The position numbers and the translations under genes were made by a program. The notes beneath the pieces were generated by a model, which saw only the letters and a program-made list of their open reading frames with translations, made no database searches and was not told the DNA's origin. Positions 15,447-16,588 of a DNA stretch of 43,134 bases are shown here, one piece after another (the stretch's first letter is position 1; each line of letters starts with the position of its first letter). Source of the DNA: Thermoleophilia bacterium (GTDB lineage Bacteria > Actinomycetota > Thermoleophilia > Miltoncostaeales > Miltoncostaeaceae); NCBI GenBank assembly GCA_020848615.1, contig JADLHW010000103.1:1-43134 (forward strand), read 5' to 3'.

Positions 15447-15476
15447 TCGACATTTCCGGTTTTGGTGATCGCCTGA

Positions 15477-15482
15477 TACGGT
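15477..15482 (+). promoter_or_regulatory. -10 for the terC riboswitch transcript
   Basis: TACGGT places the transcript start near 15489, at the 5' edge of the riboswitch core. Confidence 0.4.
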
Positions 15483-15488
15483 GACCGC

Positions 15489-15606
15489 GCGGAGGGGAGT
15501 ACCCCGTCAGCGCGCGGTCGTCAGCCCGGCACCAGCCCGGCCGCGGCACCCCGATCGGGGTGGGGAAGACCTCGGCTCGACGTCATCGACGAGACCGGGA
15601 GTCCCC
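15489..15606 (+). ncRNA. Putative yybP-ykoY Mn2+ riboswitch
   Basis: The leader of terC starts with GGAGGGGAGTACCCC, matching the conserved GGGGAGUA entry of the yybP-ykoY class. It continues with GGTCGTCAGCC and ends with CGAGACCGGGAGTCCCC. The terminal TCCCC can pair with the 5' GGGGA to close P1. The GGGAG just before the start codon is the only SD candidate and lies in the 3' strand, so folding would gate translation. The class binds Mn2+ and commonly controls TerC-type exporters. Called from motifs and position, not from a covariance search. Confidence 0.75.
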
Positions 15607-15607
15607 T

Positions 15608-16588
15608 GTGAACGACGCCCTCCAGTTCGCCGTGCCCGTCTGGGCGTGGCTGGCCTTCGGCGGCGCCATCGCCGCGTTGCTCGCTGTCGACCTGTTCCTG
15701 CACCGCGACGATCACGAGGTCTCGTTCCGGGAGGCCGCCGTGTGGAGCGGGGTCTGGATCGGGGCGGGCCTGGCCTTCGGGGTGGTGCTGTGGGCCTGGC
15801 GGGGCGGTGAGGTTGCGGCCACCTACTACTCCGCGTACCTCATCGAGAAGGCGCTGTCGGTGGACAACGTCTTCATCTTCGCCCTCATCTTCGGGTCCTT
15901 CGCGGTGCCGCCCCGCCTCCAGCACCGGGTGCTGTTCTGGGGCGTCGTGGGGGCCCTGGGCCTGCGGCTGGTGTTCGTGTTCGTCGGCTCCGGCCTGCTG
16001 CAGGCGTTCTTCTGGACCGCGTACGTGCTCGGCGCGTTCCTCGTGTTCACGGGCTACCGGATGGCGTTCCGGCACGACGAGCCCATGGATCCGGGACGGA
16101 ACCCCATGGTCCGCCTCGTCCGCAGGGTGATGCCCGTCGACCCCGCGTTCCACGACGGCCGTTTCGTGATCCGCCGCGACGGCCGGCGCGTCGCGACGCT
16201 GCTGGGTGTCACCCTGGTCGCGATCGAGGCGAGCGACCTGGTGTTCGCCGTCGACTCGGTGGCCGCCGTGCTGGCGATCACCACCAACACGTTCGTGGTG
16301 TGGGCGTCCATCGCGCTGGCGGTGCTGGGCCTGCGGGCGCTGTACTTCTGCCTCGCCGGGCTGCTCGAGCGGTTCGTCCACCTCCACCACGGCCTGGCGT
16401 TCCTGCTGGCGTTCGCCGGGGTGAAGCTCATCCTGTCCGAGACCCCCGTCGGGAAGCTGCCGGTGTGGCTGTCCCTGTCGGTCATCGCGGTCACGCTGGC
16501 GGTGAGCATCGCGTGGTCGCTGCTGGACTCCCGCGGCGGCGTCCCGGCGGACGAGGCGGAGGTCAGTCCGCCGGCGGCGGCGCGGTGA
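15608..16588 (+). CDS. TerC-family Mn2+ exporter
   Basis: 326 residues, TerC/Alx family, about nine membrane segments. The two acidic signature motifs are present: YLIEKALSVDNVFIFALIF and EASDLVFAVDSVAAVLAIT, whose Asp/Glu residues are thought to form the metal path. A cytoplasmic loop (about 155-200) has the usual RNPMVRLVRR...VDPAFHDGRF pattern. Family members export Mn2+. The start is GTG 15608, immediately after the riboswitch; the frame continues 16 codons upstream through the leader. The 3' end overlaps the convergent small gene at 16563 by 26 bp. Confidence 0.93.
   Translation: MNDALQFAVPVWAWLAFGGAIAALLAVDLFLHRDDHEVSFREAAVWSGVWIGAGLAFGVVLWAWRGGEVAATYYSAYLIEKALSVDNVFIFALIFGSFAVPPRLQHRVLFWGVVGALGLRLVFVFVGSGLLQAFFWTAYVLGAFLVFTGYRMAFRHDEPMDPGRNPMVRLVRRVMPVDPAFHDGRFVIRRDGRRVATLLGVTLVAIEASDLVFAVDSVAAVLAITTNTFVVWASIALAVLGLRALYFCLAGLLERFVHLHHGLAFLLAFAGVKLILSETPVGKLPVWLSLSVIAVTLAVSIAWSLLDSRGGVPADEAEVSPPAAAR

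Follow-up and report, generated by a model that had tools for sequence, protein, structure and literature searches.

The region directly 5' of terC in a 43,134-nt stretch of DNA from a Thermoleophilia bacterium (the window, by which we mean the whole stretch analyzed) is very probably a Mn2+-sensing riboswitch of the yybP-ykoY kind, in a form that is missed by the Rfam model RF00080. Our joint reading, to which we give a probability of about 0.87, is a P2-less yybP-ykoY Mn2+ riboswitch resembling that of E. coli alx and switching translation of terC on. The element class is known already and the mechanism is an ordinary one among known riboswitch types; the window copy is a new yybP-ykoY member of the P2-less, translational ON type. 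Most likely, high Mn2+ switches on translation of a Mn2+-handling membrane protein, TerC. Sequence comparison shows homology to Mn2+ riboswitches of E. coli, establishes the aptamer fold through covariation, and finds the site residues, the promoter spacing and a competing pairing of the Shine-Dalgarno (SD) with the P1.1 3' strand conserved.

To build a comparative basis, terC genes of related genomes were collected with their leaders, and 23 leaders, the window and its congener left out, were aligned. The alignment contains the invariant blocks GGG-AGUA, CG-CA, CG and A-ACC, an invariance that is partly built in because the leaders were chosen by motif search. RNAalifold, given no structure, folded the 23 leaders into P1.1, P1.2, P3 and a distal helix; 15 of the 24 pairs show compensatory changes, and the alignment itself had been made without structure. 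A covariance model from these leaders (R1), which had never seen the window or its congener, matched the window at 15486-15577 with 58.8 bits (E 5.1e-12 over the window), the next-best match in the window reaching E 1.6. R1 matches were found in 98 of 399 Thermoleophilia genomes, and in the alignment of 101 class matches (A2) 94.6% of cells are paired, with 374 double-change cells vs 84 in shuffles; sliding A2 by one column lowers pairing to about 53%, and no slid version exceeds 54%. Because A2, like A4, was fitted to the model structure, the RNAalifold test on the 23 leaders is the cleaner one. Over 17 kb of E. coli K-12 sequence from the mntP and alx regions, R1 returned exactly two matches, the alx leader (38.4 bits, E 1.5e-7) and the mntP leader (36.1 bits, E 5.4e-7), both established Mn2+-responsive yybP-ykoY riboswitches (PMC9603457), and it also matches terC leaders of Micromonospora, Actinoplanes, Salinispora, Nonomuraea, Kineosporia and Nocardia. 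A second model (R2), built from actinomycete terC leaders plus the E. coli leaders and not fully independent because it was aligned with R1, matched the window at the same boundaries (15486-15577; E 8.2e-8) and only two places in the source genome. An earlier note on this DNA had proposed the yybP-ykoY Mn2+ class with terC as its target, and both proposals are supported by the comparative evidence. The GTG start codon of the gene lies at 15608-15610, and its product belongs to the TerC family. The aptamer and its gene are laid out as follows.

15486 to 15577, plus strand: predicted yybP-ykoY-type Mn2+ riboswitch aptamer, given as the extent of the model match (R1, 58.8 bits; R2, 36.1 bits)
15492 to 15495, plus strand: P1.1 switch helix, 5' strand GAGG, pairing with 15570-15573 (in A2, pairing at 94% and double changes)
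15496 to 15501, plus strand: 5' half of loop L1, GGAGUA (conservation in 101 matches)
15502 to 15505, plus strand: P1.2 helix, 5' strand CCCC, pairing with 15562-15565 (all four pairs with compensatory double changes)
15506 to 15509, plus strand: short linker at the place of P2 in the four-way-junction form, P2 being absent (length counts in relatives)
15510 to 15547, plus strand: P3 arm, 15510-15520 with 15538-15547, and distal helix, 15528-15530 with 15535-15537 (RNAalifold, pair counts, single-sequence fold)
15521 to 15527, plus strand: loop L3, UCAGCCC, Mn2+-sensing by class (conservation; L. lactis site residues)
15548 to 15561, plus strand: P4 hairpin ACCCC-GAUC-GGGGU, 15548-15552 with 15557-15561 (fold)
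15562 to 15565, plus strand: P1.2 helix, 3' strand GGGG (RNAalifold, R1 match, A2 pair counts)
15566 to 15573, plus strand: 3' half of L1 and P1.1 3' strand, AAGA-CCUC, the aptamer's true 3' hallmark (aligned in 101/101 matches)
15608 to 16588, plus strand: terC, GTG start, 326 aa (PF03741, E 5.5e-47; same start site in orthologues)

P1.1 comprises just four pairs in the window, followed by a G-G mismatch, and the L1 block GGGGAGUA that characterizes the class lies beside it at 15494-15501, where the 5' hallmark GGGGAGTA had rightly been placed before. Across the 101 matches, A15498, A15501, A15569 and C15570 are invariant and T15500 is kept in 100, while the length and sequence of P4 vary among relatives. 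The four-way junction with P2, a feature of the class, is lacking in the window, which has about 4 nt at the P2 position; this stretch measures 3-8 nt in 94/101 class members and 16-29 nt, with a hairpin, in the remaining 7. The absence of P2 is not treated as excluding membership because an accepted member, E. coli alx, is also without a P2 insert, and for the same reason we dropped P2 loss as a structural novelty.

The 3' end of the aptamer differs from the one first proposed. A GAGACC-type strand after the P1.2 3' strand belongs to the class (in X. oryzae the counterpart is GAGACC; PMC6754395) and is found in the window as GGGG-AAGACC at 15562-15571. The earlier note had instead taken CGAGACC as the 3' hallmark and had the aptamer abut the GTG; CGAGACC is indeed present at 15590-15596, but the hallmark is AAGACC at 15566-15571, and some 30 nt separate the end of the aptamer from the GTG, the note having set that end about 25 nt too far downstream. 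In its exact form that model, a single compact element running from 15477 to the GTG and closed by CGAGACC and the SD strand, has next to no chance of being right. CGAGACC does resemble the class hallmark, and AGGGGA at 15493-15498 could pair with UCCCCU at 15602-15607; yet both covariance models end the aptamer at 15577, CGAGACC at 15590 has no preceding strand able to pair with the P1.2 CCCC, and the second GAGACC, though shared with the congener (L002), is absent from the next orthologues (L003-L007), which carry CGAGCGGAGG there. Because all homologues use GAGACC or AAGACC directly after the P1.2 3' strand, the copy at 15590 is not the 3' hallmark; as an aptamer end it is ruled out by the comparative alignment, in which it falls in the expression platform.

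We take U15521, C15522, A15523 and C15527 of L3 to be the equivalents of L. lactis U39, C40, A41 and C45, a mapping that rests on spacing and on the 4Y1I sequence. By this mapping, the window L3 has the invariant adenosine and the U39, C40 and C45 equivalents that mark the class, and among the 101 matches U15521 is conserved in 97, C15522 and A15523 in 101 and C15527 in 99. The L. lactis Mn2+ site consists of U39, C40, A41, U44 and C45 plus a G of L1 (PMC9190785), and its UCA-N3-CG spacing is kept in the window. This branch might share the fold and the switch while sensing another divalent ion, to which TerC-family and other genes would then respond: a review holds that some common yybP motif variants have probably changed ligand (PMC7266159), and some class elements precede genes with no evident link to Mn2+ (M48 protease, Usp, Na/Ca exchanger, V-type ATPase D). 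We consider that improbable: every inner-sphere position of the site legible in the sequence is of the Mn2+ type, with the A41 equivalent in 101/101, TerC heads the targets, which include MntP and GDT1, and R1 also finds E. coli alx and mntP. By analogy with its class, Mn2+ would be the ligand of the window aptamer.

The Rfam search proposed in the earlier note as a check gave no match, formally the outcome that it had named as speaking against the class; the purpose-built model matches, however, and RF00080 is an unfair test of this branch. No RF00080 match was obtained in the window at the gathering cut-off of 45 bits, in the leader alone at E up to 10, or over the whole source genome (3.6 Mb, 183 contigs), and weak Plasmid_R1162 and P10 matches to other Rfam models in the leader, from the search at E up to 10, are chance. 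Among 149 Thermoleophilia genomes none exceeded the cut-off, and the two weak RF00080 matches, of 33.3 and 22.4 bits (G057 and G052, respectively), lie at the same places as R1 matches; likewise, 0/12 actinomycete terC loci found by R1 reach the cut-off. The missing match is not evidence against the class because RF00080 underscores E. coli mntP (41.6 bits, under the cut-off) and omits alx, which it does not list at E up to 5. The P1.1 and P1.2 pairs are absent from the RF00080 alignment as shown. For G+C-rich Actinomycetota, an absent RF00080 match thus says little. The model overlooks this branch, which R1 located in 98 of the 399 Thermoleophilia genomes sampled, and it fails on both E. coli members as well, leaving one out and scoring the other too low, so annotations relying on it will under-count Mn2+ regulation.

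15474 to 15482, plus strand: extended -10 box TG-A-TACGGT, with TACGGT at 15477-15482 (sequence, conserved spacing); predicted transcription start about 15488-15490

The position of this box places the start at the foot of P1.1. A plain sigma-70 scan found no promoter at the window leader. In 88/101 leaders a TANNNT hexamer starts 16-21 nt 5' of the GGGG core, whereas other 6-nt windows yield 1.1 leaders on average and 2 at most. The RNA model reaches just 8 nt upstream of the core, so this spacing does not depend on the way in which the leaders were identified. The fixed spacing supports the earlier suggestion that transcription begins at the edge of the aptamer.

Two further elements lie between the aptamer and the GTG.

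15568 to 15603, plus strand: predicted SD-hiding hairpin GACCUCGGCUCG / CGAGACCGGGAGUC, -18.5 kcal/mol, which excludes P1.1 (predicted fold; relatives' pairing)
15597 to 15601, plus strand: Shine-Dalgarno GGGAG, 6 nt before the start codon (sequence, fold)

In the predicted fold, the strand 15568-15579 has two alternatives, pairing either through 15570-15573 with the P1.1 5' strand or forward with 15590-15603, and the hairpin formed in the latter case pairs the GGG and the last G of GGGAG. GGGAG is the sole SD-like site, as had been claimed, but it ends six bases before the GTG and not two, and it sits in this separate downstream hairpin and not in a closing strand of the aptamer. Among class terC leaders, the SD is paired in 62/66 folds and is paired specifically with the P1.1 3' strand in 57/66. 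Native strand pairs average -13.7 kcal/mol vs -9.3 kcal/mol when strands are swapped between loci, with 0/5000 permutations as good (uncorrected for relatedness). Without ligand, the OFF form is the preferred one in the fold program, by about 10 kcal/mol, and in the ON form as modeled the SD can still form weak pairs, through its GGG, further downstream. In these folds the SD would thus be held by a helix that excludes the ligand-stabilized one, the arrangement that defines a translational ON switch.

The window leader has no T-run or terminator-like site 3' of the aptamer, and a run of five or more T within 80 nt of the aptamer occurs in only 2/101 class leaders. Together, this rarity of T-runs and an SD that pairs with the P1.1 3' strand support a translational ON switch, in agreement with the translational control suggested earlier. 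Were the aptamer instead to act mainly via transcription (Rho-dependent termination or pausing) or mRNA decay, the hairpin would merely insulate the SD. The X. oryzae and L. lactis relatives do act on transcription (PMC6754395, PMC9190785), and a few class members with T-runs after the aptamer (e.g., L145 and L156) resemble transcription terminators, but the same scarcity of T-runs and a hairpin that pairs with the SD itself make this reading a long shot, somewhat less probable still than a change of ligand. Control of terC presumably acts at translation and not through transcript stability or Rho, and the ON direction would follow from the class, in which Mn2+ turns on translation initiation at the E. 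coli mntP leader (PMC9603457).

We propose that the translational switch would work as follows. With its 5' end near 15488-15490, the transcript would begin at the foot of P1.1. When Mn2+ is scarce, GACCUC (15568-15573) would pair forward in the hairpin 15568-15603, hiding the SD. When Mn2+ is abundant, the ion would dock L3 (U15521, C15522, A15523 and C15527) onto L1 and stabilize P1.1, which may then reclaim GACCUC and weaken the long hairpin, allowing ribosomes to start at the GTG at 15608. Such pairing of the SD to a P1.1 strand is a clear, testable design for a translational switch.

As is typical of the class, the element stands 5' of genes for Mn2+ export or handling: terC in the window, TerC in 70/101 class elements and GDT1 elsewhere. 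By category, the genes following the 101 elements are 69 TerC, 12 HtpX, one htpX-terC pair (counted within the 70) and 19 others. Downstream genes confirmed by Pfam comprise M48 protease, Usp, GDT1, Na/Ca exchanger, V-type ATP synthase D and zinc-ribbon protein, and the assignments of MntP (L166) and of a P-type ATPase (L091) were made by eye from their sequences only. We tentatively suggest, at somewhat below even odds, a large Thermoleophilia Mn2+ regulon unseen by RF00080, in which the same translational switch may control TerC, HtpX-type membrane proteases and a small Asp/Arg-rich protein (the last in three genera, including the source's). Such a regulon, if real, would tie Mn2+ sensing to membrane-protein quality control.

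Several further observations concern the genes at these loci. HtpX-type M48 membrane proteases follow the element in 13/101 cases (L083, L084, L090, L102, L109, L112, L114, L116, L129, L139, L151, L165 and L167), with terC next in line at L112; in B. subtilis, HtpX co-purifies with TerC-family proteins (PMC10550928). Small Asp/Arg-rich open reading frames of 58-67 aa with a good SD follow three matches, namely L106 (220-396; source genome, C114), L107 (218-418) and L108 (217-420), and are themselves followed by a zinc-ribbon protein in L106 and L107. The reading frames of L106 and L107 differ by 26 non-synonymous and 6 synonymous codons. Of two matches about 1.2 kb apart (L126 and L155; G156, C307), one precedes terC and the other V-type ATP synthase subunit D. 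Universal stress protein-type genes lie directly after L086, L113 and L118 (confirmed by Pfam for L086 and L113), and Na/Ca exchanger family genes follow matches with long P2 inserts (L172, L173 and L162; confirmed for L172 and L173).

Among known systems, the 'Manganese' family RF00080 itself shares the blocks GGGGAGUAGC and GUCAACAUACU...GGC, which align by eye with L1 and L3 of the window, but its current 177-position model, with no P1.1 or P1.2 pairs in the alignment shown, scores nothing there. The leader of C. glutamicum cg2157 is likewise an actinobacterial terC leader assigned to RF00080, with a mapped transcription start at most 6 nt from the predicted aptamer edge (PMC3890552), though it comes from another class of Actinomycetota and was recognized by the 2013 Rfam model (49.1 bits). 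E. coli mntP, which R1 matches and whose translation initiation is turned on by Mn2+ (PMC9603457), differs in having a P2 insert and another target gene. E. coli alx is A+T-richer than the window element, has a P4 of much greater length and carries an expression platform of its own, but it shares L1, L3 and the closing strand, likewise lacks an insert at P2 and also stands before a terC-family gene, and it was matched by R1, a model trained on relatives of the window only.
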